From positions 62,001 through 126,000 of the IMG/VR virus record IMGVR_UViG_3300033149_003588: 64,000 nucleotides of DNA, one strand, 5' to 3'. Positions within the stretch are counted from its first letter, which is position 1; every line of letters begins with the position of its first letter. The position numbers and the translations under genes were made by a program. Origin of the DNA: a virus. The notes below the pieces were generated by a model. The model worked only from the letters and a program-made list of their open reading frames with translations, was not told where the DNA came from and ran no database searches. Positions 22,658 to 62,060 of the stretch are shown one piece after another.

Positions 22658-22998
22658 TTTAACTCCTGAATATCGATTGTTGGCATGTTTAATTTCCTTT
22701 TAAATTCATTGTGCTTTGGCAAAACTAACTTAGGCACGAATCTATCTCTATAGCGCAATACAATATTAATATCAGCCACATTTGTAATAGTGGTACTTTT
22801 AATATTTTGTTCATACACATCATAGTCTATTTTCCCCAAAGTAGCCAACTGGACTACTGCACCTGACTCCACGCAAGTCCTTACAATACCGCAAAAACAC
22901 CTAATAATATGATCTACAGTAGATAGATCAACACCAGTATCATTGGATACCATGGTCGACAGGTCTGACACGCTAATATTTATTTTAGTTCTACTCAT
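22654..22998 (-). CDS. HU/IHF-like DNA-binding protein (divergent)
   Basis: A 114-residue protein that follows the HU/IHF pattern: a helical N-terminus (SDLSTMVSNDTGVD, then a long helix VDHIIRCFCGIVRTCVES), a beta segment VVQLATLGKIDYDVYE matching the HU segment VQLxGFGxF, and a closing RFVPKLVLPKHNEFKRKL like the end of HU. The arm region between is divergent and lacks the usual basic RNPxT motif. Probable role: nucleoid-like DNA bending during replication or packaging. It lies between DnaE and thioredoxin with overlaps on both sides. Fold assignment moderate, function inferred. Confidence 0.7.
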   Translation of the reverse strand: MSRTKINISVSDLSTMVSNDTGVDLSTVDHIIRCFCGIVRTCVESGAVVQLATLGKIDYDVYEQNIKSTTITNVADINIVLRYRDRFVPKLVLPKHNEFKRKLNMPTIDIQELK

Positions 22999-25900: not shown

Positions 25901-26215
25901 TACTAAATTATTATATCCGATATCATTCATGGCATAAAGCACTAAATGATACCTATGAAGCTCACCCTTCTTATATTTCTTTTTGTCCATAGAATCTGGA
26001 GCCATATAGGCTTCCATGCCTATAATAACAGGGATATCAATACTACTCGATAATTCTAGCAAAGATGGCATATTAAATATGTTACCATGCTCAGTAATGG
26101 CTACCGCTGGGTACCCTCTTTCTTTTGCACGCCTCAAATAATCCTCACGACGCATAATGGAATCCAACATCGAATATTCTGTATGCATGTGTAATGGAAC
26201 ATAATTCACAGACAT
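22991..26215 (-). CDS. dnaE: DNA polymerase III alpha subunit (DnaE type)
   Basis: Replicative C-family polymerase, ~1,074 residues. The N-terminal PHP domain has HMHTEYS (H9, H11) and ITEHGN. Catalytic Asp residues lie in PPDIDCDYE and VKFDVLGL. Other family blocks: GRGSAAGSLV, YRPGPMNSG, YGQMIYQEQIM and the NYSHSVSYGML block. A C-terminal OB-fold segment (VSFSGIIVDTKI, SLFVQDNTGTLRAQV) is present. No separate 3'-5' exonuclease, tau or clamp is seen in the window, so it may use host accessory factors or PHP proofreading. The ATG at 26215 is preferred to the TTG 15 nt upstream because GGGAG lies 5 nt before it. Phage genomes usually carry family A or B polymerases, so this type is unusual. 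Confidence 0.96.
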   Translation of the reverse strand: MSVNYVPLHMHTEYSMLDSIMRREDYLRRAKERGYPAVAITEHGNIFNMPSLLELSSSIDIPVIIGMEAYMAPDSMDKKKYKKGELHRYHLVLYAMNDIGYNNLVRLASLAYTRGFYRNPRIDYELLTQYSEGLVCSTACIAGPISKNIELGNIDAALEWNAKLLDLFGDKLLYEMMDHGIEIESTINNFLLEHFDHNKIIYTNDAHYLNPDDAFAHDVVLCIRTKKKLSDIKRLKFEGSNYHFCTIDEIRSLGVDDRYINNTTQILEWFEGYNIDKSLKMPRIYGDTMSQIRDKCTRRLFELGLNNDEYVDRLDYELSVIEKLGFSDYFMIVADIAEYARCNNIYMSYGRGSAAGSLVVWLLGITNLDPIKHNMLFERFLNEDRVSPPDIDCDYERDRRQELLQYIRDKYNGAFQIGSFNRLHLKSALRRIGTVLGIQSTVINKYIADIPMHDYDIDEFVADTMLFHKFASVNAEWPVLVTKLAGLPINLTVHAAGIVLGGGDSNIPVAKTSQSIEVTQYDMNDIEKIGYVKFDVLGLTSMDIIHKTVDYVKRTRNIDIDIYNLPLDDRDTYDLLSSGKTFGVFQMESAGFRDMLKMFKPSEFKHIVAACALYRPGPMNSGQTDFYIQGRHGAQVQYIHPDLESILSDTYGQMIYQEQIMMVGRTMAGYTASEADVLRKAVGKKDEDLLLAQEDKFIAGCINNGYTKELAVKIFELIKPAARYSWNYSHSVSYGMLAYTMAYLKVHYTTEFICAMLNYSSSGSKDRMGQILEDAMLFDIKIQAPDINVSEKDFTVDNDIILIGLSGVKGVGEKSIDAIISERESNGLFSSYVDFHNRIPKVRCNATVKRALIYAGCFDSIGDMNRREMIYYVDNETTTRLDDFTPDYKIQCESQVLPYCISTGYDGVTSISNILQLSDGTIVSFSGIIVDTKIITFGNGDNIISLFVQDNTGTLRAQVVPRNYDKHAAYIKKGAHLYFIGVIKTSKNNRRYVNLMTIRAMEKPRHAVAARIECDNMVEMIEAIGACEDAGLKFNTSEKLWGAHDSKYIINVDGYIDSSTILKLSRFKTIYTYE

Positions 26216-26223
26216 GGTGCTCC

Positions 26224-26913
26224 CTAACAATTTAATAATTTAACATCATCTATATTGCTAGTCATTTTGATATCGTTTACTAATTGTCCCAATTCATTAC
26301 ATGGATACCCATGTTCACTAGGATCGATTAATTGTTGAATATAATAATGCTTAGCACCTACGATAAAATTCATAACAACATTATGAATATCTAGTATATC
26401 AACAATACGAGAATCCATTGTGGTCCTAAAATATATATTATCGCTACCCAAGCTAGCAGCATGACGTATGTTGCTACAGACAGTATCGACAATTGGAGTG
26501 TGCTTCTTAAATACTCGATGATATTTTGTGGGTACTGTTTTCACATCTAGCGCTATAATATCAAACAAATCAAGGCACTCAACAAACAACGATTGAGAAC
26601 AAGATGAATTACTATCGAGTTTTATGTTCCACCCAAGATTAAGAGCATATTCTGCAGCTTCAATTAACCTAGTGCCATACATAGTTGGTTCCCCACCACT
26701 AAATACTAAATTTTGGGTAAAACCACCATATTTACGCAATAGCGGAGTAAGAGAATTTATTAATGATCCAGTAATGGGATGCGCGCGTGCTATGTCAATA
26801 TTGTGACAATAAGGACATGACATGGTACAACCAGGTAAAAATAATACAAGAGAATTACCATTAGGATAATCTATAGTAGAAAAAAGGTGAGGTATTTCAA
26901 ATACCTTGCGCAT
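26224..26913 (-). CDS. nrdG: Anaerobic ribonucleotide reductase activating enzyme
   Basis: Radical-SAM activase that installs the glycyl radical on NrdD. The CxxxCxxC cluster motif is CTMSCPYC (C29, C33, C36), followed by the SAM-binding FSGGEPTMY. Length 229 fits the family. It follows nrdD after 17 nt and precedes dnaE by a few bases, so reductase, activase and polymerase form one transcription unit. The cluster is oxygen-sensitive, which points to growth in anaerobic hosts. Confidence 0.95.
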   Translation of the reverse strand: MRKVFEIPHLFSTIDYPNGNSLVLFLPGCTMSCPYCHNIDIARAHPITGSLINSLTPLLRKYGGFTQNLVFSGGEPTMYGTRLIEAAEYALNLGWNIKLDSNSSCSQSLFVECLDLFDIIALDVKTVPTKYHRVFKKHTPIVDTVCSNIRHAASLGSDNIYFRTTMDSRIVDILDIHNVVMNFIVGAKHYYIQQLIDPSEHGYPCNELGQLVNDIKMTSNIDDVKLLNC

Positions 26914-26930
26914 TATTTTAATGCACCACT

Positions 26931-29900
26931 TTAATAAATATGTCTATTCTCAAATTCTGTTTGCTTACCAGCATTCCATAAACTCACAGGCCTATAATAT
27001 CCTACCACCCTAGAATAAGTATCTATAGTATATGGTTGGCCATCACTATGGTCATATGGGCATTCGGAATATTTCCCAGTCATATATCCGTGCCTGGAGC
27101 ATATGCTGTATACCGGTGTTATACTAAAATATGGTAATATGGTATTATTAGCTATGGACTTCACTATATCTCTAGCTTGCGCTGGTTTCAATTCTGAACC
27201 AATATGTAAATGTAAAACAGTGCCACCAGTAAAATTACTTTGAAGATCTTGTTGAGCGATGGCATGCTCTATAATATCACCATCATATGATGGATGGAAA
27301 TGCACAGAATTAGAAAAATATGGCACACCATTACCCTCAGATGATTCATATATATCTGGATATTTTATCCTTGCGAGCCTAGCTAGTCTAGTAGTAGCAC
27401 CTTCAGCGGGTGTAGCTTCTAAATTATATAATGTCTGGTCCTCATCTCGCATATGATCAAGCCTATCAAGTATATATTCCATAGTTTCGATACCAAACCT
27501 GGTAGCAGTACTATCGTGCAATGGTAAACCCAATAAATTCATAGTAGCGTCATGCATGCCTATGATACCTATTGTATTAAAATAGGTCTTCCAGTATTCA
27601 TTGTATGTTTCTTTATTGTCCTTTAGCCACCTAGCAGACATCGGATATAATCCCTGATCTGCACGCCTTTCTATTTCAGCACGCCTTGCCATCGATACAT
27701 TTCTTGCAATGTCAAGATATTTATCTAATAATACCCTAAACCTATCAACACTACCATCAGCTTCATATGCTAACATGGGCAATGAAATAGAACATACTGT
27801 CGTACTCCCTGTTCCAGCAGCGCTACCAAATAATCCAAATACTTGTTTCTTTTCCTTGGTATGCTCCGACAATTTACACTCGTAATTATTATTCATTACA
27901 TTGTTAATCTCATTGTGATCTATGCGTAGACGGCAATTATGCGTAACAATGCCATTAGGCAACTGAATGGCATGCATATCATTATCCACTTCTACATCAT
28001 ATACATATCCGGTGTAATCTACCGATTCAATACTGGCAACACGTCTAGCGTGTAAACCACCGGTTATAAACATCTTTTGAAACTCAGTGATGGATTTTAG
28101 GTACCCGGCGATTATCTCATAGTTAGAGGTGTACGATTTACGATATGTATTAATAGCACCGGGGTGCTTCTCGCATGTTATATTATCCTCGGTGATACCA
28201 AGCACGCTAGGATCTATACCATACCACCTACTTTTAGTATCGTAATTAAGTTGTGGTATTATCTTTGGTATGTCCTCAGAAATAATAGTAACTATATAGG
28301 AATCCCAATATGTATTAGTACGCCAACTTCTTTCTTTTTTATATCTAATAGTGGAGTTTATACCAACGGAACGCATTAGTGCTTGCATGCCAACTGATAA
28401 ATCATATGATGCTATGTGAAACATAACTTCATGTCCACCAGTTGTTTTGACTCTGTGGTACCCGTCGCCATCTATAAACCCAGCAATAACACCAGACCTG
28501 AAATCTAGTGGAGTACTAAATATATATTGCCCAATACCCTTATCCCTAACTATATCATCTGTACCAAACAAATTACGTAATAAATCATAAAGTCCGTGAT
28601 CACTACAAATGGCGATTCTTATTGAATTGTCTCTATAATGAGTAGTATATGAACATTTAATACCAAGTATATCATTAACAAATCTGCACACGAACTCTAC
28701 CAAATCTAGTTCATCAGTGCCAAAATACATGGCCAAACTCTTGCTACCATTATGTTGCTTGCATCCCTCGGCCAGATATAACCCAACAAATCTACCAAAA
28801 TTATAGTCTAACTCGACATTGCGACCATTAATATTTATGTACTCATCATATTGACATACATCAAATCCCTTTGTCATCAATAACCAATCACCCAACACTA
28901 ACGATTCAGCAGACACTTCTATAATATTACCACCAACAACAGTAAAACATGGATGGTCTGGAGTTATAGACATCGCTCTACCATCATCCAGCGTCACCTT
29001 AATAATATTGCCATTGTATTTCTTCCTTAATATATGATTTACCGGTGCATAAACTGATTCGCCGTCACTATCAATCGACAATATAGATAATCTATCGCCG
29101 GGTTTATACCACTCGGCATCATCATCGGCTCGAATGCTTTCGTCACAATAGTCATCAAGACCGCTAGCATTAATATATTCCGTACGCCCTCCTATTTGTA
29201 TAAGTAATGGAGTATTGGCGGTAAAGCAACACATACTAGTTGTATCATCAGGGCTATTATCAGAATTGATATAATTGGAAAAATATGGGGTACCATATTT
29301 AGCAGTAACATTCCATAACATCTCACGATCATCATCGAAATTAAACTCTTTAGTAATACTTATTGTAGGAATGGGGAATGTCATAGGTATAGGTGCATCA
29401 TAAAACAATTCAAACAACACCTCAGCTATTAACAATGCTTGATCAGAAAAATCCCCATATGTATAAGAATCAACATGCTTGCCTGCGTGTATAATCTTTT
29501 TATTATATAGTGATGGTGTATAACCATAATCTAACGTAATATTAGAGAAAACAGTCTGATAACCCGGTCGTATAAGACTATTATTTAAGAAATATATGAA
29601 TTCTTGTAATGATTGTTTAACCTGTGCCCTAGTAAGACCATCAAATGCCACATAGGGACTCAATAGCGTGTCAAAATTACTTACAGCAATCGCCCCTGCA
29701 TATTCATTTTGCATAATAAACATAAAACTAGCTAGCTGCATAAGGGCAGAACTAAAATGCTTGGCTGGATCATGCCCAAGATAAGATGCATATTGGGCAT
29801 TACCGTTTAATAAAAGGTCAGATAATGAAAACCCCGCACAATATGGCCCGAGAAATCCTAAGTCGTGTATATGTATATATCCATCCTGGTGGGCAACTTT

Positions 29901-30062
29901 AGCTTCACTATCAAATACTTCATTTAGCCAATAATCCTTAATAGCATCATTAAGATATGTACTATATAGATGCGATATACTTGGCGATGAATTGGCATTT
30001 TCTGTTCTAATGTCAGCATTTAGCAAATATCGATCAATTGAAGTCCTAAAATCTCTAGACAT
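26931..30062 (-). CDS. nrdD: Anaerobic ribonucleoside-triphosphate reductase with intein
   Basis: Class III reductase making dNTPs without oxygen. The precursor is ~1,043 residues; removing the 431-residue intein leaves ~612, close to T4 NrdD. Extein marks: YCAGFSLSDLL (active-site Cys region), the CCRLRID block where the intein sits, TTVCSISLP, and the C-terminal glycyl-radical motif RVVGYYRPVSLWNAGKQ. The zinc site before it reads CSRHGY...ECPYDH; the last Cys of the usual CPxC pair is Asp, with His next to it. Start choice is uncertain: ATG at 30062 has GGGAG at 11 nt; GTG 30074 and ATG 30071 are also in frame. The mRNA leader can pair with this binding site. Confidence 0.95.
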   Translation of the reverse strand: MSRDFRTSIDRYLLNADIRTENANSSPSISHLYSTYLNDAIKDYWLNEVFDSEAKVAHQDGYIHIHDLGFLGPYCAGFSLSDLLLNGNAQYASYLGHDPAKHFSSALMQLASFMFIMQNEYAGAIAVSNFDTLLSPYVAFDGLTRAQVKQSLQEFIYFLNNSLIRPGYQTVFSNITLDYGYTPSLYNKKIIHAGKHVDSYTYGDFSDQALLIAEVLFELFYDAPIPMTFPIPTISITKEFNFDDDREMLWNVTAKYGTPYFSNYINSDNSPDDTTSMCCFTANTPLLIQIGGRTEYINASGLDDYCDESIRADDDAEWYKPGDRLSILSIDSDGESVYAPVNHILRKKYNGNIIKVTLDDGRAMSITPDHPCFTVVGGNIIEVSAESLVLGDWLLMTKGFDVCQYDEYININGRNVELDYNFGRFVGLYLAEGCKQHNGSKSLAMYFGTDELDLVEFVCRFVNDILGIKCSYTTHYRDNSIRIAICSDHGLYDLLRNLFGTDDIVRDKGIGQYIFSTPLDFRSGVIAGFIDGDGYHRVKTTGGHEVMFHIASYDLSVGMQALMRSVGINSTIRYKKERSWRTNTYWDSYIVTIISEDIPKIIPQLNYDTKSRWYGIDPSVLGITEDNITCEKHPGAINTYRKSYTSNYEIIAGYLKSITEFQKMFITGGLHARRVASIESVDYTGYVYDVEVDNDMHAIQLPNGIVTHNCRLRIDHNEINNVMNNNYECKLSEHTKEKKQVFGLFGSAAGTGSTTVCSISLPMLAYEADGSVDRFRVLLDKYLDIARNVSMARRAEIERRADQGLYPMSARWLKDNKETYNEYWKTYFNTIGIIGMHDATMNLLGLPLHDSTATRFGIETMEYILDRLDHMRDEDQTLYNLEATPAEGATTRLARLARIKYPDIYESSEGNGVPYFSNSVHFHPSYDGDIIEHAIAQQDLQSNFTGGTVLHLHIGSELKPAQARDIVKSIANNTILPYFSITPVYSICSRHGYMTGKYSECPYDHSDGQPYTIDTYSRVVGYYRPVSLWNAGKQTEFENRHIY
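27936..29228 (-). other. Intein with LAGLIDADG homing endonuclease inside NrdD
   Basis: In-frame 431-residue protein intron at precursor residues ~279-709. It begins with Cys in CFTANTPLLI (block A), has block B TPDHPCFTV, two LAGLIDADG-type helices (FVGLYLAEG and VIAGFIDGDG) and ends with YDVEVDNDMHA then GIVTHN (blocks F and G), followed by Cys as the +1 extein residue. Excision rejoins MC to CRLRID, restoring the conserved double-Cys motif of NrdD. Both endonuclease acidic residues (E and D) and the terminal His-Asn are present, so splicing and homing may be active. Confidence 0.93.
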
Positions 30063-30073
30063 GATACTCATCA

Positions 30074-30152
30074 CTCCCTAATAAAATTAAATTCCTATAT
30101 CACTAGTATATCGACTAATGACAATACCTAAAAATGAAGATTTATTAGGGAG
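30074..30152 (-). promoter_or_regulatory. nrdD leader able to hide its ribosome binding site
   Basis: A perfect 12-bp inverted repeat (CTCCCTAATAAA at 30074-30085, TTTATTAGGGAG at 30141-30152) flanks 55 nt. In the minus-strand mRNA the upstream arm CUCCCUAAUAAA is an exact complement of the downstream arm that carries the nrdD Shine-Dalgarno GGGAG. The loop holds its own 8-bp hairpin (UCAUUAGU / ACUAGUGA, one G-U pair, 6-nt loop). The layout resembles a translational switch controlling nrdD, with ligand, protein or temperature sensing unknown. A TTGTCA / GATATA pair 17 nt apart in the same stretch could be a promoter, but this is weak. Confidence 0.55.
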
Positions 30153-37881: not shown

Positions 37882-38442
37882 CTATAACCCTAATGAATAT
37901 GTTTCTATATCTCTTATCGCTAATGCCGTCATATCTTTAATTTCCAAACAACCATCGATAACATAAAGTTTTGTCAGCTGTTTATGTTTAAATAGATATA
38001 CTATAATTTGTAATATTCTCTTCTCTTCACTCGATAATCTCTTATTAATGGATCCCCCATCATCCCTACCCCTATTCTTAATCCTCTTTTTGGCCACACC
38101 AAATGGTACCTGAATATAATATATGGTTGGAACATTGTATTCAAGCGAATATAAAAACTCAAGTTGAGCTACTGTCCTGGGGAAACCATCTAATATAACA
38201 GTATTGGAGGCCATCATTATGCTGCCCGCAATCTCTTGCCTAATGTCATCCTCACGCGGAGATAGCCAATCAACAGAATTCAATTCACCCATAGAATCAT
38301 CACTATTGTGAATCCTCCTAGCTATATCACCAGACGATATATATCCATATCCCATGTGCTCTGCTAAAGATTTGGCAAATGTACTTTTACCACTACCTGG
38401 AACACCCATAACCACTATAACATTTTTCCTATCTTCACCCAT
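37882..38442 (-). CDS. Adenylate-kinase-like nucleoside monophosphate kinase
   Basis: 186 residues. P-loop GVPGSGKST (13-21), AMP-binding-type SSGDIARRI, the adenylate-kinase signature DGFPRTVAQ, and a short lid RGRDDGGSINKRL. This is the short-lid adenylate kinase form that phosphorylates (d)AMP-like substrates. In a phage carrying a PurZ-like enzyme it might convert dZMP or dAMP to the diphosphate; that is inference, and host kinases do this in described Z phages. ATG with AAAGGAG; overlaps the GT9-like gene by 8 nt. Confidence 0.85.
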   Translation of the reverse strand: MGEDRKNVIVVMGVPGSGKSTFAKSLAEHMGYGYISSGDIARRIHNSDDSMGELNSVDWLSPREDDIRQEIAGSIMMASNTVILDGFPRTVAQLEFLYSLEYNVPTIYYIQVPFGVAKKRIKNRGRDDGGSINKRLSSEEKRILQIIVYLFKHKQLTKLYVIDGCLEIKDMTALAIRDIETYSLGL

Positions 38443-39442: not shown

Positions 39443-42061
39443 TTAATCAGACGAATTAAATGGAAACTCAGGGAAAGCATAATTACTACACTCACCCATC
39501 CTTAGCGATCCGGGCATATCAAAATCACAATTATCAAAAATACCATCTATATGTAACTTTTGCCTACCCTGTCTATCCTTATCAATATTATAAATAACAT
39601 TACCATGAGCTATCCCCTCGATTCTGGGCTTGGGTGCAAGAACCACAAACTTATCCGCAGCCCTACCCATGCCTTTGGCACCAGCATTATAGCGCATGCC
39701 ACCAGCCTTTGTATCAATAGCTTCATCACTCTGTTGCGATAATGCAAATATTGCTATCTCTTGGCCACTTTTGCGTGATCGCCATTTTAATTCATTTGAA
39801 GCATCTTCTAATAATTGGTATTTCTGCATGCCCTTATGTCTGGCCTCTGGTCTTATCATCTGAATATAATCTATAAATACCATCTGGACCCCATACTTAA
39901 TATAGTGCATATCAATAGATGCCATAATATTACTCATTGTAATATCAGATAACTCATCTATATAGATATTAGAATTATGTATCATTCCAAAGGCCTTTTG
40001 TATTATCTTGGCATTGTTATCATCCACATTACCGTTCATTATGTCAATACCAGAGATCCCAGTAAGAATCGCAACCATTCTACCTGCTAATTCAGTGGGA
40101 GACATTTCACAAGATATTATCAATATTGGAAGTTGATTAACAACTATGCCCATATCAACAGCCAAATTGCACATAAAAGCAGATTTACCAACCCCACTAT
40201 TACTACTAATATAATATAAATAACCTGTATTTATCCCTGACCATAATTTATTGATGGTACCCCAACGATGTGACATATGATAACCACGTATCTTATCATC
40301 AGATTGTAGCTGTTTAATAAAATCTAGACGTGCAGCTGATGCATATGTGCTAGGTGTCGAATCATATATAACCAAATTATTTACTATGCCAGATGTATAA
40401 AACCCCTCAATGGTATCATTGATTGGAGTGGAAGCGTCGGCCAATCCAGCCCTCAAATCTGATACACTATCCCATATACGTCGCCTACATGATAGGTCAG
40501 ATAATAAAAATATGGCATCTTCAAGATCATCTAATTTATCTATCGACCCTGGTAATGTGGCAATAATAGTACATTCATCTTGTGTCAAAAACTTTTGATA
40601 TGTCTCAGCACCAAACGCTGCGCCACTGATAATTAAATTAGATATCTTGTCAAACAATGATGCTATCGTACTATCCGTAAAATCATCATCATGTAACTTA
40701 CTTACAATATACTTTCGGGTTGACTTATTATTAACCAGTGTGGCTAATATTCTACGCTCAAGCCCAACATCCTTCAGCATCGACATAGTATCCGCATGAT
40801 AAAAATCACGCAATGTGTCAATATCTATATCAGATAATTCGCTCACATATTGAAGCCCGAGATCCATCTGAAATAATGATATATTAACAAAATATTTCTT
40901 AAGAGCATTAAGAAATCTATAACGATTCGTCATGTTATCAGCGGGATATCGCTCGACTAACTCATCTATCATATATTGTATTGGTATTTTAGCCGCATCG
41001 ATAATATTAAGCACAGCATCCACACCATATTCTATTATATACTCATCTGGGTCTTGGGATGTAGGAATAAGCGCAACCCTTATATTATGTTTCTTATATT
41101 TGCGAGAATGCACTATCTCATAGATACTATTACGCCCACTCATGGCGCCATCTGGTAACCATACAACATCAACACATTCCTTAATTAAATCTAATTCTAG
41201 ATGTTGTGGCTTCACTGGTTTCCCAAGAGTAGCCATTGTATTTTTTATACCGTTCTGCCACAACAATAATTGATCAAAAACACCCTCAACAAAAATCGCC
41301 TGGCCACTTCTAGATATATACCCCCTGGCCTGTTTATAACCAAATGGCAGATTAGTAGCCAACACATTGTCTTTACCCACACCCATATATTTAGGATCCC
41401 TACCCGGGGCCATGGTCTGAAAATACACAAATCTTCCATGCTCATCAGTTATGGGGAAAATATATGCAGCAGACATGCGCATATTAGAGGCAAATCCAAG
41501 CCTAACTATATCATCATACCTATACCCCTCTTGGACAAGATAGCTAGCAAGCGCATCAGGATTAGCACAAAAACCGATTTTAAATGCCTCAATAGTATCT
41601 GATCTTAATCCCCTATCGTATAATAACTGAAGCTTACTTTTACTATGTAATAAATTGTTATGCATATAGAATATGGCATCTTTAGTTATTGACAAGTAAG
41701 TAGCTATTTGAGGGTCTATATCTTCTTCAACAATATAATCATCCAAACTTAGGTCATAGTATTCAGCTAATCTTAATATAGCCTCGGTGAGGCTTTCGCC
41801 ATAATACAATGTCCGCCACTTAATAATATCTCCACCTACACCACAACCGAAACACTTAAACAAACCCAGGTTATCATTTATCTTAAATGACGGATTATTT
41901 TCTTCGTGAAACGGGCACAATATAGTTATATTGCTACCCTGCCTATCCATTGATGCTTCTGTAAGGTCTAGATCGTGAATAATTACTTCAGAAATACTTA
42001 TATTCTCTTTAAGATAGTCTATTACCTTTCTTATATCTGAAAAACGGCTCTCCAAATTCAT
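39443..42061 (-). CDS. Bifunctional primase-helicase (T7 gp4-like)
   Basis: 872 residues. The N-terminal CHC2 zinc finger is CPFH...CFGC (C49, H52, C70, C73). A DnaG-type catalytic region follows with TOPRIM glutamate in IFVEGVFDQ; the second TOPRIM motif, normally DxD, reads LPDGAMSG, so one Asp is Ala. A DnaB-type N-terminal helical linker lies at ~400-560. The RecA-like helicase has Walker A SNSGVGKS (~620-627), Walker B MVFIDYIQMI and the SQQSDEA sensor. It would unwind DNA and lay primers for the DnaE polymerase at the fork. Overlap-free, 27 nt before the GT9-like gene. Confidence 0.93.
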   Translation of the reverse strand: MNLESRFSDIRKVIDYLKENISISEVIIHDLDLTEASMDRQGSNITILCPFHEENNPSFKINDNLGLFKCFGCGVGGDIIKWRTLYYGESLTEAILRLAEYYDLSLDDYIVEEDIDPQIATYLSITKDAIFYMHNNLLHSKSKLQLLYDRGLRSDTIEAFKIGFCANPDALASYLVQEGYRYDDIVRLGFASNMRMSAAYIFPITDEHGRFVYFQTMAPGRDPKYMGVGKDNVLATNLPFGYKQARGYISRSGQAIFVEGVFDQLLLWQNGIKNTMATLGKPVKPQHLELDLIKECVDVVWLPDGAMSGRNSIYEIVHSRKYKKHNIRVALIPTSQDPDEYIIEYGVDAVLNIIDAAKIPIQYMIDELVERYPADNMTNRYRFLNALKKYFVNISLFQMDLGLQYVSELSDIDIDTLRDFYHADTMSMLKDVGLERRILATLVNNKSTRKYIVSKLHDDDFTDSTIASLFDKISNLIISGAAFGAETYQKFLTQDECTIIATLPGSIDKLDDLEDAIFLLSDLSCRRRIWDSVSDLRAGLADASTPINDTIEGFYTSGIVNNLVIYDSTPSTYASAARLDFIKQLQSDDKIRGYHMSHRWGTINKLWSGINTGYLYYISSNSGVGKSAFMCNLAVDMGIVVNQLPILIISCEMSPTELAGRMVAILTGISGIDIMNGNVDDNNAKIIQKAFGMIHNSNIYIDELSDITMSNIMASIDMHYIKYGVQMVFIDYIQMIRPEARHKGMQKYQLLEDASNELKWRSRKSGQEIAIFALSQQSDEAIDTKAGGMRYNAGAKGMGRAADKFVVLAPKPRIEGIAHGNVIYNIDKDRQGRQKLHIDGIFDNCDFDMPGSLRMGECSNYAFPEFPFNSSD

Positions 42062-42735: not shown

Positions 42736-43239
42736 CTAATCAGGATCTGTCTCACTATTTAAAATATCCTCAATATATCGTATCACCTCTGATGGAACTT
42801 TGTCTGGAACCCTAACAAGATATTGAAGATATTGAATATCATCAACTATATCACTAATATTTCGGCCAGTATACTTACCAAAAGAGATGGTCCAGTCACC
42901 AGGGGCACCCATACTACTACATTGAGCACATAGTTTATCATCGCCTTCAACCACAGCAGGTCGTCCACATTTATCACACATAATTATTTTATATTTAGGT
43001 GGCAGCACAATGTCACTATATGAACTTATAACCTCATCCTGTTTATCACTAACGAAGCCATGCACACTTTCAATAGATGAATATGATATGTTCTGCCGTA
43101 CAAGCCTGCCCCGACTTTCTATTTCTACCACAGCAGTTTTAAATTCAGCATTAGCAGAAATTATTACACCCTTGCGCACTCTAGCGCCATCTCTAAAAAG
43201 CACTTCTCTTCCGGGCAATAATTCTTTATGTTCTTTCAT
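42736..43239 (-). CDS. Zinc-ribbon protein with DUF3820-like C-terminus
   Basis: 167 residues. An N-terminal SH3-like beta domain (PGREVLFRDGARVRKGVII) precedes a zinc ribbon (CDKCG...CAQC). The C-terminus has the FGKYTGRNISDIVDD...YLQYLV motif typical of DUF3820-type domains often found attached to DNA exonucleases. It is likely DNA-linked, with role unknown. ATG at 43239 has a perfect GGAGG 6 nt upstream, so the longer frame to 43293 is not used. The start overlaps the end of the SF2 helicase by 14 nt. Confidence 0.65.
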   Translation of the reverse strand: MKEHKELLPGREVLFRDGARVRKGVIISANAEFKTAVVEIESRGRLVRQNISYSSIESVHGFVSDKQDEVISSYSDIVLPPKYKIIMCDKCGRPAVVEGDDKLCAQCSSMGAPGDWTISFGKYTGRNISDIVDDIQYLQYLVRVPDKVPSEVIRYIEDILNSETDPD

Positions 43240-44602
43240 ATTGCTCCTCCTTAAATTGGTAATATTTGTGTATATTTGATCTATATTTTGCATGTTTCTC
43301 TAAGTATGGTACATCATCACACAAATCAAATATGGTAGCTTCAGTTTTACCATCTGCGATTCTCACTGTTCTACCAACAAGTTGATAGTCATCCTTTGTA
43401 GGATAGGCCTCAATTAAACAATCGAGACTCGGAATATCTAATCCTTCTTTAGCAAGCGTCGTAACTAATATCTTAATATCTTTATTATCTAAACGAGTTA
43501 ATATATCTGTTCTATCATCTGTATCATCAACACCGTATAATTCCTCACAATTGTTGCTATTTAGCATGGACATTATTCTTTTACCATGATTAACCTGATT
43601 AACAGCTATAATAACAGACTTATCAGCATTGGAATATTCAGTGGCCATGTCAATTATAAGTTTTGTCCTAGAATCGTTTTCGATAACTTGTTTTTTAAAA
43701 ACATTTTGATAAGTACCCAACGTTTTATCGGTAGGACCAACCTTAATCCTTTTAATAGTTGGAGAAATAACATATCCATCCGAGGCAAGAATATTAAATG
43801 GAACTCTAAAACCAACCATGCCACCAATACCTTCGAGTAACATATCATTCCCATCAGCCCTATAATCTGATGCGGTAAGCATGAGTAATCTAGATACATG
43901 TTTAAAATGTTTAGTAACGTCCTGTAACATATCACTAGCCAAAGAGTGTGCCTCATCTACTACAACCATCTCGGTTTCATTGATAATTCGTTTTATATCA
44001 CTATTGCTCGCCCCAGATAAAGCTCTGATTAATGTCTGAACAGTAGCCACATTTACATCATGCACATCACACCTACCAGCGCCTATTATACCTACTGGAA
44101 TCCCAAGTATATGCTCAAGAATACGTTGAGCCTGGAATAATAAAATATTAGCATTTACCAAAAACATAGTTTTACGTTTTATTGCATGAATACATGCAGC
44201 TGCTACAGCTGTTTTACCAGAACCAGTCGGTAACACGCAAAACATTGCAGGCTCACTATAATTAATAAATGCCCGAAGAGCATCTTTTTGATATGGTCTT
44301 AGGTCAATATTAATATCGCTTGGCATATCAACTGAAGTACATGGAGGATGTCCATCATATATTACCGTATATTCATAATTATGACTACTAAGAATATTTT
44401 TAACACGCCGCAAAAACCCAACCCTAAATTTTAGACCCTTGGATATGACATATCTCCACCCACCGGTATACTCATATGCCCTGCTAAACATATATCCAGT
44501 AGGCCTATAGCGCATCTCTCTTCTAAGTATGCTATATAATTTATTGGGGGCATTAAGAATCCGCCCCCAGATATTATCTACTTGTATAATTATAGAAGGC
44601 AT
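43226..44602 (-). CDS. SF2 DNA helicase (UvsW/RadD-like)
   Basis: ~458 residues. Motif Q-like LRPYQKDAL, Walker A LPTGSGKT (~125-132), DEAH Walker B (VVVDEAH, ~215), motif III LLMLTASDYR and a C-terminal RecA domain with VIIAVNQVNHG, LVTTLAKEGLD and QLVGRTVR (arginine finger). It resembles T4 UvsW-type branch-migration helicases. The ATG at 44602 overlaps the stop of the glycosyltransferase gene (TAATG), which decides the start over an ATG 54 nt upstream. Role inferred: recombination and fork remodelling with RecA. Confidence 0.9.
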   Translation of the reverse strand: MPSIIIQVDNIWGRILNAPNKLYSILRREMRYRPTGYMFSRAYEYTGGWRYVISKGLKFRVGFLRRVKNILSSHNYEYTVIYDGHPPCTSVDMPSDINIDLRPYQKDALRAFINYSEPAMFCVLPTGSGKTAVAAACIHAIKRKTMFLVNANILLFQAQRILEHILGIPVGIIGAGRCDVHDVNVATVQTLIRALSGASNSDIKRIINETEMVVVDEAHSLASDMLQDVTKHFKHVSRLLMLTASDYRADGNDMLLEGIGGMVGFRVPFNILASDGYVISPTIKRIKVGPTDKTLGTYQNVFKKQVIENDSRTKLIIDMATEYSNADKSVIIAVNQVNHGKRIMSMLNSNNCEELYGVDDTDDRTDILTRLDNKDIKILVTTLAKEGLDIPSLDCLIEAYPTKDDYQLVGRTVRIADGKTEATIFDLCDDVPYLEKHAKYRSNIHKYYQFKEEQYERT

Positions 44603-45978
44603 TATATCAATTCTATTCCAGTCCCGGCAGCAGTAGAACGTAAAACAGCCAACCATCTTTCTCGAACTTTATCCCATGTTCTCTGTATAGACCATGCCAT
44701 ACCACGTTTAGCTAAATCGGCAAGCCATTCTCTACTATTGTACGCCTTGCACAATAATCGACCCATATCCCACATCGATGGTACTGGCCTCAGCATAGCA
44801 TTATTCAATGGTAAAGCGGCTACCATATCATATTTATAGGCCATGTCAGCATGCATAATAGAAGTATTATTGCCCCTTAAACCAAGATATTCATTATACT
44901 CATCTGTAAAATGACCATACGGACCGCCACAACTTATACCAGCTATGTATCCCCCTTTGATCCTATCTATCATTGACGTATTATAGGGAGCCATCACGGG
45001 TGTGCCAGCAGCCATAGCTTCTCTAATAGGCAAACCATCGCCTTCACCAAGACTAGTCGAAAGATAAACATCAAATAAATTATATAACATATTAATTTCA
45101 GCATCAGACACAGGCGCATATTGGTTAAGTATCGAGTCAACAGTTGGAACAATTATTTTGTCTGCTATACCAAAACTGTGAGCTACCTTGGATATAGATA
45201 TAGCTGTTTGTCCTATGTTATCGACAGTATGAATATATCCCAACAATTTAATATCTGGATTTTGCCTATATGCAGCTGCTATCCCACCTATAAATCCAGT
45301 TAACCATTTTCGTGTGGAATTCGTCGCTATATAACCAACAATCATAGCATCATCGTATCCACTAAGCCGTCCAAGATGTTTGCGTATCGCAGCAATTTGC
45401 ATAAGTAGTCTATCATCAGGTTTTTGGTCAGGCCTATATTTATAGAAAATCTGGGGATCAACAGCATGCTCTATTATTATAGACCTATCCCCTAACCTTT
45501 TATTAATTTTGGCAATATGTTTATGCGTCCAGTCATTAAATAATACCGGAACATCTGCAACTTCAAAAGCCTCTAGCCATTCTAATCTTAATGGGAGTCC
45601 ATCTATGGGACTATACCATATCCACTTAAATTGTTTGTTTCTGAGTGATCTAATCTCATTTATATATGAAGCCAAATCCTGTAACACCCACATATCTTCA
45701 AGACTAAAAAATATATCATAATCTAATTTACTCAATAATTCTTTGGTTCGTCCTAATCCATACGGATCACCAGCATTAAATTGGTTATATAACGGGTACA
45801 ACTTCATATCGGTCGGGAGGTCAAATAATGATGGTTCACCAGTATAACTTTTAGCAGCAACTGTGAGCTCTATATGACCAGCGCGATGTAATTCAACCAG
45901 AGTATTCCTCAGCACTTTAGCAAAACCAGAAGGAATCGTGGGAGAATCACAATAAGCCAACACCTTTATTTTGCCCAT
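44602..45978 (-). CDS. Glycosyltransferase, GT4-type
   Basis: ~458 residues. GT-B fold: N-terminal half starts KVLAYCDSPTIPSGFAKVLRNT with a glycine-rich loop; the C-terminal half carries the donor motif GEGDGLPIREAMAAGTPVMAP (E-x7-E retaining-enzyme pattern). TTG codon at 45993 is in frame, but ATG at 45978 with GGGTG upstream is preferred. It lies inside the replication-gene block between the helicase and an unknown small gene, hinting at DNA-base or protein glycosylation rather than envelope synthesis; that is inference. Confidence 0.88.
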   Translation of the reverse strand: MGKIKVLAYCDSPTIPSGFAKVLRNTLVELHRAGHIELTVAAKSYTGEPSLFDLPTDMKLYPLYNQFNAGDPYGLGRTKELLSKLDYDIFFSLEDMWVLQDLASYINEIRSLRNKQFKWIWYSPIDGLPLRLEWLEAFEVADVPVLFNDWTHKHIAKINKRLGDRSIIIEHAVDPQIFYKYRPDQKPDDRLLMQIAAIRKHLGRLSGYDDAMIVGYIATNSTRKWLTGFIGGIAAAYRQNPDIKLLGYIHTVDNIGQTAISISKVAHSFGIADKIIVPTVDSILNQYAPVSDAEINMLYNLFDVYLSTSLGEGDGLPIREAMAAGTPVMAPYNTSMIDRIKGGYIAGISCGGPYGHFTDEYNEYLGLRGNNTSIMHADMAYKYDMVAALPLNNAMLRPVPSMWDMGRLLCKAYNSREWLADLAKRGMAWSIQRTWDKVRERWLAVLRSTAAGTGIELI

Positions 45979-46805: not shown

Positions 46806-47381
46806 TTACTCCTTTCGCTTTAGATATTTATCAAGTAACTCATTATATTGCCCCCACTTATATATCTGCCAATATAAAACATTGGTATCATCATAAGTAA
46901 TCATAATTCTGCCAGGAATCAATTCACTAAACTCGACAGAAAAACTCTTTTGATCACGCGGTGTAACTATTATATCACCAGAATATACGGTAGAATCAAG
47001 AGGAGGATCATCAATATAATCGAATATTAGAACATCAGAATATTTAGTATACTTCTGTTTATAAAATAATAACGGATGTAGTGGGAACAAATTGCCACTC
47101 TTATCTGTATGCACCATGGCTTCTTTAACTATTTGAGAAAACCATATGTGTCTAAATCTAGCCTTCGGATATACTTGCCTAGCATGATTACTTCTCCACT
47201 CCTTCGTAGCTGGATCCCTAAGCTTACATTCAGCGCCGAATACTTCATTGTATGCGTCACCCAAAGTATCATCAGATCTTATGGTATGTTTGGCAGATTG
47301 ACCATATACACGACCATGGCGACCCATTAATCTGTTGGTTCTACGCTCAAAACTTTTCCATGCCGAATCTGATGTTGACAT
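46806..47381 (-). CDS. PDDEXK-family nuclease (Holliday-junction resolvase-like)
   Basis: 191 residues. The start AWKSFERRTNRLMG matches the helix with conserved Glu and Arg residues in phage resolvase-like PDDEXK proteins. The catalytic core is D-x-(9)-ECK: SDDTLGDAY then FGAECKLRD. It lies end to end with recA (shared TAATG-type junction at 47381) and near SSB and helicases, so recombination or branched-DNA processing is likely. Exact resolvase activity is inferred from the family and context. Confidence 0.65.
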   Translation of the reverse strand: MSTSDSAWKSFERRTNRLMGRHGRVYGQSAKHTIRSDDTLGDAYNEVFGAECKLRDPATKEWRSNHARQVYPKARFRHIWFSQIVKEAMVHTDKSGNLFPLHPLLFYKQKYTKYSDVLIFDYIDDPPLDSTVYSGDIIVTPRDQKSFSVEFSELIPGRIMITYDDTNVLYWQIYKWGQYNELLDKYLKRKE

Positions 47382-48490
47382 TATCCCTTATCTTCTGATA
47401 CTGATTCTATACCGCTATCCTCAATAATATTAATATCTCCCCTGTCTTTACCTATCATTGTGTATACTCTATTTCTAATAATCTGATAATATTCATCATT
47501 TTTATGTAGTTCCTCTAAAAATGCATCACGACCATTGGCACCCATCAATTTCTTATTATTATCATCAAGAAGATTGAAATATGAAGATTTTTGTTTTATA
47601 ATACCCGCCCTAATACCGGCCTCAAACGCATCATAATATTTATCAACACCAGATCTAAAATCAACCTTTACCTTGAATCTCGCACCAACAGTTGGAGCCA
47701 ATTTATTTTTAGTTATTTGATATTCAGTTTCACATCCTGTATTAATATCATCACCATCATCAGATCCTATTAATGTATGTCTAACAACCTTTAACTGATA
47801 TGAACAATAAAATCTTAGCGCAGTGCCACCAGTAGAATATGTGGGATCACCGAACATCTGATTAGGATTCTTGCGAGTCTGGTTAATAAACATCACAACA
47901 GTTCCACTATTAGTTATGCCAGGTGTAATTCTCTTTAACCCCTGTGACATTAATTGTGCAAGATGTGCTCTCTTGCCCGGGCCATCGGCCATTGGTGTTT
48001 CTACAATTGCCTTGGGAACCATTGCTGGTACGGAATCGACCACAATTAAAGCAAATTTGCCAGTATCAATTAGCGCCTGCAATATGTCGAAATAATCCTC
48101 ACCGTATAGTGGCTTACTGTCAGACCTAACAACGAGTAACTCCTCAACATTAACACCAACATTACTAAAAAATCTAGAACTAGCAGCACCCTCTGCATCG
48201 AGGAATGCGCATAAACCACCGCGACGTTGAGTTTCCACAATAGCCATTATAGATAACAATGTCTTCCCACTAGCCTCCGGCCCATAAATATCAACAATCC
48301 TACCGCGAACGAATCCGCCCAATCCTAAGCATCTATCCATAGCTAGTATACCAGTGGGTAGTGTATCTATTTCATAATTAGACATAGCACTAAGCGGACC
48401 AATAGAATCGGCATACGACTTCAGACTGTCAACTTTTTCTAAATCAAATCGATCTTGATCAAACATGGCCATATTATCTCTCTTACTCAT
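47381..48490 (-). CDS. recA: RecA recombinase
   Basis: 369 residues. Walker A GPEASGKT (70-77), a preceding LPTGILAMDRCLG, the catalytic Glu segment DAEGAASS, Walker B ALIVVDSVPAM, and loops L1/L2 (FINQTRKNPNQMFGDPTYSTGG). It matches the bacterial RecA core rather than UvsX. The C-terminus is acidic, as in RecA. Overlaps the probable SSB by 8 nt. Role: strand exchange in repair and recombination-dependent replication. Confidence 0.95.
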   Translation of the reverse strand: MSKRDNMAMFDQDRFDLEKVDSLKSYADSIGPLSAMSNYEIDTLPTGILAMDRCLGLGGFVRGRIVDIYGPEASGKTLLSIMAIVETQRRGGLCAFLDAEGAASSRFFSNVGVNVEELLVVRSDSKPLYGEDYFDILQALIDTGKFALIVVDSVPAMVPKAIVETPMADGPGKRAHLAQLMSQGLKRITPGITNSGTVVMFINQTRKNPNQMFGDPTYSTGGTALRFYCSYQLKVVRHTLIGSDDGDDINTGCETEYQITKNKLAPTVGARFKVKVDFRSGVDKYYDAFEAGIRAGIIKQKSSYFNLLDDNNKKLMGANGRDAFLEELHKNDEYYQIIRNRVYTMIGKDRGDINIIEDSGIESVSEDKG

Positions 48491-49622
48491 TGTTTTCTTC
48501 TGCCATATACTTGATATTTAGGTGTTCAATAAATGACCGTATATTCGGAGCTGACCACGAGCCAGGACTATCGGGTTTAGATTCATTCTTGTCTTTACCA
48601 AATTCGCGGAATTCCCCCGCCAAATCTACTGCATTCGCTTTCTTATCGAGAACGATACGCCTAATCAACTCATCTAATTCATTTTGCAATGCAGTAGTAT
48701 CCTCTTCGTCACGTAAATCACTTTCAGGTGACGGTTCGCCCAACATAGCGCCGGGAGGTAATAGCTTGTCCGCTAATTTTCTTGCAGCTATCTTCAGGGG
48801 CTTCGGAATTCCAGTAGTCAAAGCCAACACACCAAGAAAGGCTGGATCATGATCAACTATATAACCCAGTGGTTTACCCTGGTAGGGAGGAGAAGTTACT
48901 ATAATCGCAAGATCACCAGTATACTTAACCTCTGTTGGAGATGCTATGCCACCTATAGTAGGATCCATATCCTCACCAGCTATAAAAGCATTTAGCTCAT
49001 CGGGATCCATAACCTGGTTCTTAATTATCTCTATAATAGCCTCTTTATTTGGTATATCTTGTCCTTCTATTAATGATTCGTCAAATGGTGAATCCGCTAG
49101 CGCTATGGCAGTATATTTTACGATATTCTTAGAAGATTTGGCTTTCTCAATCTCAAAATCGAAATTATAAGCATCACCTCTAGCTTCTATATTTTCCTTG
49201 AAAGCAGTAAACAACTGGTTACCCTGATTAAGGATCTCAACACGACCGGTAGCATAATTATAAACCGGAACCATGTGTACCTGTCTTACGGGAAAATCTC
49301 TCCTATCAGAGTTCCTGTTATATTTCTCACGTTCAAGAAGAAAATCCCATAAAGGATCTGTCTTGCCGCAGAGTCCACACATACATGGCTGCCGCCCAGA
49401 AATCTCGACAATATTACATGGCTGGGTTTTATATTTTCTGAGCAATATTTGCTCCGACTGTCCTTCATTTCTCTTGGCCGAAAAAATCTGGTGTGTCCAG
49501 AAACTAACCGGTTGAGTAATTCCAAATTTTTCGTGCAACAATAAGCGAATCCTAAACCTCTTATTATCCTGAAATTCTACATATCCAGCATGTCCATTAC
49601 TACTAACATCGTTCCATCCCAT
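48483..49622 (-). CDS. Probable single-stranded DNA-binding protein (gp32-like)
   Basis: 379 residues. A zinc-knuckle region CMCGLCGKTDPLWDFL is followed by basic and aromatic residues (RNSDRRDFPVRQVHMVPVYN) and an OB-like beta segment (GRVEILNQGNQLFTAF, NFDFEIEKAKSS), the layout seen in T4-type gp32 and many phage ssDNA-binding proteins. The C-terminus is acidic (AEENNE), another SSB trait. Directly upstream of recA and downstream of purZ. ATG with AAAGGAG. Confidence 0.65.
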   Translation of the reverse strand: MGWNDVSSNGHAGYVEFQDNKRFRIRLLLHEKFGITQPVSFWTHQIFSAKRNEGQSEQILLRKYKTQPCNIVEISGRQPCMCGLCGKTDPLWDFLLEREKYNRNSDRRDFPVRQVHMVPVYNYATGRVEILNQGNQLFTAFKENIEARGDAYNFDFEIEKAKSSKNIVKYTAIALADSPFDESLIEGQDIPNKEAIIEIIKNQVMDPDELNAFIAGEDMDPTIGGIASPTEVKYTGDLAIIVTSPPYQGKPLGYIVDHDPAFLGVLALTTGIPKPLKIAARKLADKLLPPGAMLGEPSPESDLRDEEDTTALQNELDELIRRIVLDKKANAVDLAGEFREFGKDKNESKPDSPGSWSAPNIRSFIEHLNIKYMAEENNE

Positions 49623-49634
49623 AATATTTCTCCT

Positions 49635-50900
49635 TTATAATATGTGTGTATTCTTAATCACCTCATTATAACCCTTACCATATCCCATAAGATAGATCGG
49701 TATCTTCTCTGAGGTAATTATGTCAAGAACATCAACGAGTCTATCTATAGAAGAATTAAATTGTTCAATAGTCATATCACCGAGAGGATATGAAGTGTCC
49801 TTGACTCCGAGTAGACTATCAACAAATAATTGACCAGCACCAATTCCAGCGATAATTTCACGCATGTCCGCACACATATCATCACCGATGCTAGGATAAA
49901 AATAATCTAAGAAATTGATGGCCAATATGCTAGGTCTACATATATCACATGCGTAATGAAACTCGTCTCCACTAAATTCGAATACACGTCTAACACGTTT
50001 TGAAACGGTGGTACTCTCAATTACATGCTTGCCAATGCGCTCGCTAATAATGTCCCAGCTAATTTCCTCACCCTTCGATGGGCCAGAATTGCCAGCAACT
50101 CTGATAGGATACAACCGAGTAACACCCACGATATCTCTAACGGTAAGTGGTGACAATCCTGCCTCCATAAGCCATTGTGCTGGGCCAGTAGAACGACTGG
50201 TGGTATATGGATAATATCCATGGTGAATAGATAACATCATACCCTGTGCACCCTCCAATAATATATTGCCACCAGCACGCTCTACATTATTGAGAAATTC
50301 ACTAACCCTGGTATCACACAAATATGGCTGCAACATATCGATATCTTTAGCGTGACGCATTTTACCCTTACGCTGAATCTTTTCAACCAGTGCGGCGCCA
50401 CCACCATGCCTGGTACTACCTATTATATCATTAAGATCGGGCGCATGCTCGGGACAATTACTACATCCATGAAGTCGATCATAATTCTTACATTCTGCTG
50501 GATCTTTACCATTCCGTATCCATGCACAAGCATTTTCTCCACCAGATTCGGCCATCTTGTGACGTAAATCTATAATGGATGCATATGGATCGACAATAAT
50601 GCGCTCATGCGTAGATATACCCTCAGATTCTAACCACTGTATTTCTCTCTTAAATATTTCTAAATCTATTTGAGATCCAGCACCCAACACCAATTTAACA
50701 TCAGGATCAGACATGCCAACACATGGTATAACCTGAAATGCATATTGTTTGGTTCTATCTGGATTCCAAACACTATGACCGGCATTGGGACCACCGGTAC
50801 GCACTATCGCATCGTATGTCCTATCTACTATCAAATGCTCCGCCACTCTACCCTTGCCTTCTGAGCCAAATGCTAGCCCTACTATTATATCGACTGGCAT
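49635..50900 (-). CDS. purZ: PurZ-like 2-aminoadenylosuccinate synthetase
   Basis: 421 residues of the adenylosuccinate synthetase family: GSEGKG P-loop (12-17), NAGH with catalytic His42, IGSTRHGGG, LLEGAQG, TTSRSTG and the GTP-binding PIYLMGYGKG. At residue 13, where PurA has the catalytic Asp (WGDEGKG), this protein has Ser (FGSEGKG); Asp-to-Ser at that site is a reported hallmark of PurZ, which joins dGMP with aspartate in making 2-aminoadenine (Z) for DNA. Residues ~124-152 hold a Cys-rich insertion (CAWIRNG, ECKN, CSNC). ATG with AAGGAG. MazZ and DatZ, the usual partners, are not in this window. Plain PurA activity cannot be excluded by eye. Confidence 0.82.
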   Translation of the reverse strand: MPVDIIVGLAFGSEGKGRVAEHLIVDRTYDAIVRTGGPNAGHSVWNPDRTKQYAFQVIPCVGMSDPDVKLVLGAGSQIDLEIFKREIQWLESEGISTHERIIVDPYASIIDLRHKMAESGGENACAWIRNGKDPAECKNYDRLHGCSNCPEHAPDLNDIIGSTRHGGGAALVEKIQRKGKMRHAKDIDMLQPYLCDTRVSEFLNNVERAGGNILLEGAQGMMLSIHHGYYPYTTSRSTGPAQWLMEAGLSPLTVRDIVGVTRLYPIRVAGNSGPSKGEEISWDIISERIGKHVIESTTVSKRVRRVFEFSGDEFHYACDICRPSILAINFLDYFYPSIGDDMCADMREIIAGIGAGQLFVDSLLGVKDTSYPLGDMTIEQFNSSIDRLVDVLDIITSEKIPIYLMGYGKGYNEVIKNTHIL

Positions 50901-59932: not shown

Positions 59933-60023
59933 ATCTCCCTCTTGTCTACTTACTGATTATCAAATACTATATTCAATATCCCTCTCTCATTTTTAAGAAC
60001 TACAAAATAAAAAATTATGATAT

Positions 60024-60067
60024 TTTCTTCTTTTTCGGATACATATTCTTATCGGAACAAAAAGAAA
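60024..60067 (-). terminator. Terminator-like hairpin between two gene blocks
   Basis: In the 163-nt gap at 59933-60095, two 18-nt arms (60024-60041 and 60050-60067) pair at 15 of 18 positions around an 8-nt loop. On the minus strand the hairpin is followed within about ten bases by a U-rich tract (ATTTTTTATTTTG). This fits an intrinsic terminator for the 60.1-62.1 kb genes. The remainder of the gap, 59933-60004, probably contains the promoter of the next unit, but no clear -35/-10 pair stands out. Confidence 0.45.
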
Positions 60068-60095
60068 TATTACCAAAATATCAGTTCTGGACATG

Positions 60096-61007: not shown

Positions 61008-61479
61008 TATAACCCCACAAATTTATAAATGATTCTTTCAGATGGTTATATAGTTCTTTATCTTTGATATATATTGATATGTCATGCCAATCACTACTAG
61101 ACAAATAATTCATTCCGCCCATCATAACATTATCATCATTCCATAATATAAATTTTAAATGACTTAAAGGAACGAATCTTATATCTAATATGTTGGAATA
61201 TTCAACCAAATGCCTATTTAATCTCTTAATATAATTATCTCTAGCTCTTGTGCTTCCACAATTGGGACACGGTTGAGGATAAAATATCCCCACTATGGCC
61301 TTGATTTTTACATTGAATTTCTGAATATCACTAAGAAACTTTGCAGTATCATTATACCGGTCTGCCCCACAAGCATTCAAACCACAATATATGCCATAGC
61401 TAGCTATTAACATTTCACCACTAGGATTAGTAGATAATATATATTCATATACATCCTTTATCAATTTATATAGTTTCAT
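60997..61479 (-). CDS. PLD-like phosphodiesterase-fold protein
   Basis: 160 residues. A single HxK motif (HLKFILW) is followed at the expected spacing by GGMN (PLD consensus GSxN); the usual Asp four residues after Lys is Asn. Residues ~72-80 hold a CPNCGS pair. The motif spacing (H-x-K ... G-x-x-N at +14/+17) supports a PLD/Nuc fold, but the altered Asp makes activity uncertain. It overlaps the uracil-DNA glycosylase gene by 4 nt. Confidence 0.6.
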   Translation of the reverse strand: MKLYKLIKDVYEYILSTNPSGEMLIASYGIYCGLNACGADRYNDTAKFLSDIQKFNVKIKAIVGIFYPQPCPNCGSTRARDNYIKRLNRHLVEYSNILDIRFVPLSHLKFILWNDDNVMMGGMNYLSSSDWHDISIYIKDKELYNHLKESFINLWGYNVD

Positions 61480-62060
61480 AAATATTGTTTCAATGATCTT
61501 AGGTCATCAATAAATTGTGGTAACTTCGTTTTATCTCTTAATATATATGATGGATGATATGTTGCTATTACGGGTACAGTAAATTTATCCAAAATTAATA
61601 CATCCTTTATAATATTCATTAATGATTTCAAACTCCTAGATGCTGGCTCTTTCATTAGTGCTCTGGCAGCTACGCGTCCTAGACAACATATTATACTAGG
61701 ACGTATTATATCAATTTGAGAGTAAAGATATCCTATGCATGACAAGATTTCTTCTTTATGGGGATCTCTATTATTAGGTGGGCGACAATGTACAACATTG
61801 CTAATATAAACATCTTGTCTACTCATACCAGCAGCCTCCAGTGCTTTATTAAGCACTTCTCCCGATTTACCAGTAAATGGAAGTCCCACAAAATCCTCGG
61901 TTACCCCAGGGGCCTCACCCACAAGCATAATGTGGGCATCATGATTGCCATCACCAAACACTACAAAATTTCTCTCTAAGTGTAGGGCACATTTCCTACA
62001 TGTTGCCATATCTGCAAATAGCGCCAACAATCTATTAGCTTTAGAATCAGATAATTGCAA
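61476..62060 (-). CDS. udg: Uracil-DNA glycosylase, family 4 (Fe-S)
   Basis: 194 residues. The Fe-S Cys pair CRKC (C21, C24), GEAPGVTEDFVGLPFTGKSGEVL split by the catalytic loop, NVVHCRPPNN, further Cys residues around IICCLG, and the late ATYHPSYILRD motif all match the bacterial/archaeal family 4. It removes uracil from DNA. The TTG start at 62060 is preceded by GGAG 5 nt away; the conserved Cys pair is inside this frame. A short ORF ends 13 nt upstream. Confidence 0.93.
   Translation of the reverse strand: MQLSDSKANRLLALFADMATCRKCALHLERNFVVFGDGNHDAHIMLVGEAPGVTEDFVGLPFTGKSGEVLNKALEAAGMSRQDVYISNVVHCRPPNNRDPHKEEILSCIGYLYSQIDIIRPSIICCLGRVAARALMKEPASRSLKSLMNIIKDVLILDKFTVPVIATYHPSYILRDKTKLPQFIDDLRSLKQYL

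Follow-up and report, generated by a model that had tools for sequence, protein, structure and literature searches.

The window, a stretch of 64,000 nucleotides covering positions 62001-126000 of a 144,798-bp virus record (IMGVR_UViG_3300033149_003588; the 144.8-kb query genome, G000), carries a purZ-like gene together with genes of replication and nucleotide metabolism (Table 1). The open reading frame is intact, with an ATG start and no internal stops. Its product, a predicted dGMP:aspartate ligase (succino-amino-deoxyadenylate synthase), is a full-length PurA-family protein (Pfam PF00709, 9e-44; PHROG 1211, 2e-66), and among the NCBIfam models the PurZ model NF038379 scored best (3e-64, 217 bits, versus 2e-47, 162 bits, for the PurA model TIGR00184). 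Though this was the best-scoring family, the score lay below the curated NF038379 cut-off of 300 bits, which is an annotation threshold and no biological definition. The top PDB sequence match was the PurZ of vibriophage phiVC8, and the AlphaFold model (pLDDT 87) matched the folds of archaeal PurA (5k7x), phiVC8 PurZ (6fko, 6tnh and 6fm1, dGMP-bound), PurZ0 (7vf6) and S-2L PurZ (7odx). Among known phages, there was no relative with more than ~33% identity across most of the protein length. A single-sequence search of viral contigs returned no relatives, which were found by a profile search, while the search of genome contigs returned canonical PurA only.

Table 1. Features of the purZ-like gene and of the query genome; coordinates are those of the window unless prefixed by G000.
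Feature	Coordinates	Strand	Remarks
purZ-like gene	49635..50900	-	421 aa; predicted dGMP:aspartate ligase
FGSEGKG motif, codons 11-17	50850..50870	-	Ser13 codon at 50862-50864
Insertion of ~33 aa, residues 119-158	50427..50546	-	unique; four Cys (125, 137, 146, 149)
Asp332 codon	49905..49907	-	corresponds to E. coli PurA Asp333, the guanine-binding Asp
379-aa protein adjoining purZ	48483..49622	-	G001 homologue (2.8e-22) matches SSB PHROG; likely ssDNA-binding protein
RecA/UvsX-like recombinase	47381..48490	-	
SF2 DNA helicase	43226..44656	-	syntenic in G001
DnaG-type primase fused to DnaB-type helicase	39443..42061	-	
Adenylate-kinase-family NMP kinase	37882..38442	-	G001 homologue adjoins its adenosine deaminase gene
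Anaerobic ribonucleotide reductase NrdD	26931..30074	-	with intein
Radical-SAM protein	26224..26913	-	likely NrdG activase
DnaE (Pol III alpha)	22991..26230	-	1079 aa; catalytic PDIDCD and FDVLGL and PHP-domain motifs present
Family-4 uracil-DNA glycosylase	61476..62060	-	one also in G001
ADA-family gene	G000:10217-11164 (L002:10217-11164)	-	outside the window

A sequence-only reading of this locus had pointed to a Ser in place of the catalytic Asp of PurA, with His42 retained, as a signature of PurZ. Both residues were borne out by the alignment, in which Ser13 corresponds to Asp13 of E. coli PurA, Ser23 of S-2L PurZ and Ser14 of phiVC8 PurZ, and His42 to E. coli His41. As a signature, the motif stood with respect to the Ser change, but FGSEGKG differs both from the motif of classical PurZ (GSTGKG) and from the one most often seen in PurZ0 (GSEAKG); GSEGKG was present in 19 of the 91 alignment rows. 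Asp13 is the essential base of PurA and is 99% conserved (PMC12884076). The aligned phage relatives of the Ser/Gly type had Ser at this position in 79 of 80 cases and Gly in one, and all 11 PurA-side rows had Asp. Since the phage relatives also form a single clade (see below), the Asp13-to-Ser change in the query is, judged from the alignment, no chance change. Furthermore, the residues of the dGMP pocket matched those of S-2L PurZ (query G12, S13, N39, A40, T163, Q219 and V268; S-2L G22, S23, N49, A50, T132, Q190 and V241). The PurZ-specific Thr297 was present (S-2L T273; PurA Gly298), as in every aligned phage PurZ except L061, which has Ser. So was the PurZ-specific loop (AGN..SGP) following the base-contacting Val268, described as an insertion favouring deoxyribose and tied to deoxyribose selectivity (PMC8342488). 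The PurZ-like phage protein L061 also has Gly at the Asp13 position (FGGEGKG) and a long branch, recalling the Gly noted in archaeal sequences.

The position of PurA Asp333 was occupied by Asn or Gln in 31 of the 33 GSTGKG proteins and by Asp in most others. PurZ0 uses GTP and PurZ uses ATP, and the Asp/Asn pattern is in line with this division. The query, with Asp332, shows the guanine-binding residue of the GTP-using PurZ0 type and not the Asn/Gln of the ATP-using classical type. Because Asp332 is kept as in PurA, and most GSTGKG PurZ proteins have Asn or Gln, the query enzyme is predicted to take GTP as donor. The donor preferences of PurZ0 and PurZ are given in the opposite order in PMC12884076. 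Arg302 of the query, like Asp332, agrees with PurA. The four-Cys insertion was absent from all 90 other alignment rows and was poorly modelled (pLDDT 51-65).

The phylogeny covered 91 sequences: besides the query, these were references for phage PurZ and PurZ0, relatives from IMG/VR, and PurA proteins of E. coli, of metagenomes and of Pyrococcus, the last with its aligned part only. All Ser-type phage proteins, including the query, and the one Gly-type protein fell into one clade apart from PurA (100/100). This placement, together with the additional PurZ-specific features, supported the proposed PurZ-type identity, and a PurA identity of the query was rejected. Decay of the gene was also rejected in view of the intact reading frame and the conserved synteny. 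Within the clade, the query paired at 98/91 with L029, a protein of IMG/VR contig G001 (102,947 bp) with 43-47% identity to the query, and this pair was sister to all GSTGKG proteins (100/92). The query was thus inside neither the classical PurZ clade nor the PurZ0 clade. A previous study recovered 147 phage sequences, which without exception had Ser and fell into two groups (PMC12884076). Going by its position in our tree, the query is a lineage outside both of these groups, that is, a third, early-branching PurZ-type lineage. The gene of the 735-kb phage LR756501 (L016) was rejected as a PurZ candidate, as its DEG motif and its grouping with bacterial PurA mark it as a canonical PurA.

Comparison with characterised systems showed what the query shares with each of them. 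The phiVC8 enzyme (6fm1/6fko; ~33% identity) likewise has Ser for Asp13, the dGMP pocket, a TTV(T/S)K loop and the PurZ-specific loop, but it combines GSTGKG with Asn where the query has GSEGKG and Asp332, and the query adds the four-Cys insertion and a longer C-terminus. The phiVC8 phage encodes PolA (DpoZ) and DatZ, neither of which was found in the query genome. PurZ0 of Gordonia phage Ghobes/Archimedes (7vf6) and of Arthrobacter phages shares Ser13, the GTP-type Asp and the GGPNAGHxVW and RVAGNSGP motifs with the query, which lies outside the PurZ0 clade; the PurZ0 phages carry PolA, DutZ and DmtZ. The PurZ of cyanophage S-2L (7odx) shares the dGMP-contacting residues, but S-2L differs in having PrimPol, DatZ, MazZ and a genome of 45 kb. 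Archaeal PurA (Pyrococcus, 5k7x/2d7u) resembles the query in its fold, short form and GTP-type Asp, but has Asp13, Gly at the Thr297 position and no PurZ loop, and groups with PurA.

DnaE was the sole replicative polymerase found in the query genome, in which there was no match to PolA (family-A polymerase), PolB, PrimPol or PurB; PolB and PrimPol were therefore rejected as the replicase. In this respect the genome departs from the published Z (2-aminoadenine) systems, where the polymerase is a PolA-type DpoZ or, in S-2L, PrimPol. PolA occurs in all ZTGC phages except S-2L (PMC8342488), and its groups correspond to PurZ and PurZ0 (PMC12884076). Since the Pfam MazG model PF03819 matched only 2 of 48 PurZ contigs and is a poor probe for MazZ, HMMs were built from PurZ-phage loci (DatZ, 40 loci; MazZ, 32; Dut-type proteins, ~40; PolA, 59). 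None of these matched in the query genome, nor did the Pfam MazG and HD-domain models. The search for MazZ and DatZ in the rest of the genome that had been suggested along with the PurZ identification thus turned up neither. DutZ, DmtZ, DpoZ and MazZ-2 were not found either, and the published set of DatZ or DutZ/DmtZ plus MazZ/MazZ-2/DUF5664 was missing from this possibly incomplete record. No terminal repeats were found in it, and completeness on this ground was rejected, as there was only a local repeat of ~300 bp; the gene absences are therefore provisional.

The contig G001 provided a close point of comparison. Both genomes have the gene order portal, terminase, DnaE, NMP kinase, primase-helicase, SF2 helicase, RecA, SSB-like protein and PurZ, and the conservation of this collinear replication block at only 43% PurZ identity argues for purZ being functional. 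Like the query genome, G001 combines a PurZ with Ser13 and Asp332 with DnaE, an NMP kinase, a uracil-DNA glycosylase and an ADA-family gene, and PolA, PrimPol, PolB, DatZ and MazZ were all absent from it. Unlike the query, its PurZ has no Cys insertion, and its genome encodes an adenylosuccinate lyase, PurB, directly upstream of purZ (TIGR00928, 237 bits; PDB 1c3u, 1e-49). A gene run at 56358-61863 of G001 comprises a dUTPase, the NMP kinase, the adenosine deaminase and the primase-helicase. This dUTPase matched the HMM built from Dut proteins of PurZ0 phages and is DutZ-related; the Dut-like and DUF5664 enzymes of PurZ0 phages hydrolyse dATP and dGTP (PMC12884076).

Across the 48 PurZ contigs, PolA was detected in 26 and DnaE in 2. 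A third PurZ contig on another deep branch (G010, L038) has DnaE, and no PolA was found in it. PrimPol was detected in 9 of the 24 PurZ records searched. These nine PurZ0-like contigs (G005, G007, G011, G013, G018, G019, G034, G039 and G047) had PrimPol and no detectable PolA, and S-2L may therefore not be the sole PrimPol Z phage. In the 81-kb PurZ contig G012 (L040), PolA, DnaE and PrimPol were all undetected.

The ADA-family protein of the query genome has all the catalytic motifs (HxH, HxGE, RxGH and TDD), with HAHLGG where canonical ADAs have HLDG (HxHLDG). The Asp replaced here contacts the 5′-hydroxyl in ADA, and it is also changed in the ADAL/MAPDA enzymes, which take monophosphates. 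For this reason dAMP is a plausible substrate, and the protein a possible dAMP deaminase. The G001 ADA is canonical (HLHLDG), shares 22% identity with that of the query genome and is located at a different genomic place, so the two genes may be separate acquisitions. G001 was the only one of the 48 PurZ contigs with an ADA-family gene (0/47 others). Among 50,697 phage records, a canonical ADA query matched 10 and the query-genome ADA 1. We regard the link between ADA and PurZ as suggestive only, because the two ADA genes are not positional orthologues and most controls are smaller than these two genomes. Deamination of 2-aminoadenine nucleosides, of which ADAs are also capable, would work against Z.

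The reading that we favour, and that we hold to be probably correct, is that the gene encodes a genuine PurZ-type enzyme of a third lineage, supplying the precursor of dZMP in a phage lineage replicated by DnaE, in which ADA perhaps stands in for DatZ. It builds on the sequence, the phylogeny, the active-site correspondence, the gene content and the synteny described above. PurZ would join L-aspartate to dGMP, using GTP, to yield succino-2-amino-dAMP, which would be cleaved to dZMP by host PurB, or by phage PurB in G001. The phage NMP kinase and host kinases would then convert dZMP to dZTP, and the phage DnaE replisome would insert Z across from T, so that the genome would be Z-substituted, wholly or in part, and resistant to host nucleases. 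Meanwhile, the ADA-family enzyme would drain the competing dA/dAMP pool, a job done elsewhere by DatZ or DmtZ. The enzyme identity in the first step is the only well-supported step, the others being drawn from gene content; we infer catalysis, the use of GTP, what the kinase and the deaminase do, and the presence of Z in virion DNA. Counted against this reading are the NF038379 score below the cut-off and the lack of DatZ, MazZ/MazZ-2, DutZ, DmtZ, DpoZ and purB in a record that may be incomplete, and, against the role of ADA, the different places and subtypes of the two ADA genes. Even so, it is hard to see the protein as a diverged PurA supplying only AMP or dAMP to the infected cell, with Ser13 incidental or the enzyme degenerate. 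Asp332 and Arg302 are as in PurA and the PurZ score is below threshold, but placement outside PurA at 100/100, the joint occurrence of Ser13, Thr297 and the PurZ loop, the loss of an otherwise essential base, and an intact, syntenic gene make this explanation very improbable.

A true dGMP-using PurZ could also act in a phage that, without DatZ, MazZ and DpoZ, makes only some dZTP, resulting in an A/Z mosaic genome or in Z that mainly disturbs host DNA. No known A-removing or Z-selecting enzyme was found in the query genome, and the S-2L replicase is itself non-selective for Z and depends on DatZ (PMC8342488, PMC8065100). Set against this are the ADA-family gene and NMP kinase, the possibility that the missing jobs fall to uncharacterised proteins, and the purB and DutZ-related dUTPase added by the sister phage; we consider this alternative unlikely. 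There is a stronger case for ADA having nothing to do with Z, as a general purine-salvage or nitrogen-scavenging gene of big phages that co-occurs by chance, which would be compatible with the PurZ and DnaE parts of the favoured reading. Both genomes are far larger than most control contigs, and the evidence comes from two genomes only, with non-syntenic ADA genes of different subtype; yet ADA is very rare in phages, and that of G001 sits between NMP kinase and primase-helicase genes. On balance, this is a serious possibility to which we incline slightly less than not. We put forward with similar reserve the wider proposal that a DnaE-type large-phage lineage makes Z-DNA with ADA, not DatZ or DmtZ, removing A, and with a GTP-using PurZ that, as sister to the ATP-using PurZ, represents a step before the donor switch.

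In every characterised Z phage the replicase is a Z-selective PolA, except in S-2L, where it is a PrimPol. A DnaE-type Z phage, if true, would mean that Z-DNA synthesis is within reach of a bacterial-style replicase and that the trait spreads over replication systems not related to one another; Z-DNA may then be commoner, and produced in more ways, than thought. An A-removing role of ADA, if true, would add another example of functional convergence to those reported in PMC12884076. The lineage position and Asp332 together offer a testable point in the succession from PurA through PurZ0 to PurZ. In the literature searched, we found no report of a DnaE-type Z phage or of ADA in an A-removing role; our own comparison for DnaE covered part of the public PurZ phages.

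Several other features of the query genome were observed. One open reading frame of ~5,279 aa occupies positions 3-14666 of the window (G000:60827-76666); visual inspection showed a motif, HTHPDH, resembling that of metallo-beta-lactamases, and an end, CxxC...RCRC, resembling phage head-morphogenesis proteins. DUF4116-repeat proteins cluster at both ends of the record (start of L002, and L006), with 13 proteins matched in two scans. The protein encoded at 56740-58734 of the window combines an AAA domain with a peptidase domain of the M41 (FtsH) type, but lacks the architecture usual for FtsH. At G000:12960-13490 lies a cytidine/deoxycytidylate deaminase-like gene, whose top NCBIfam match was the C-terminal part of an anti-phage dCTP deaminase.
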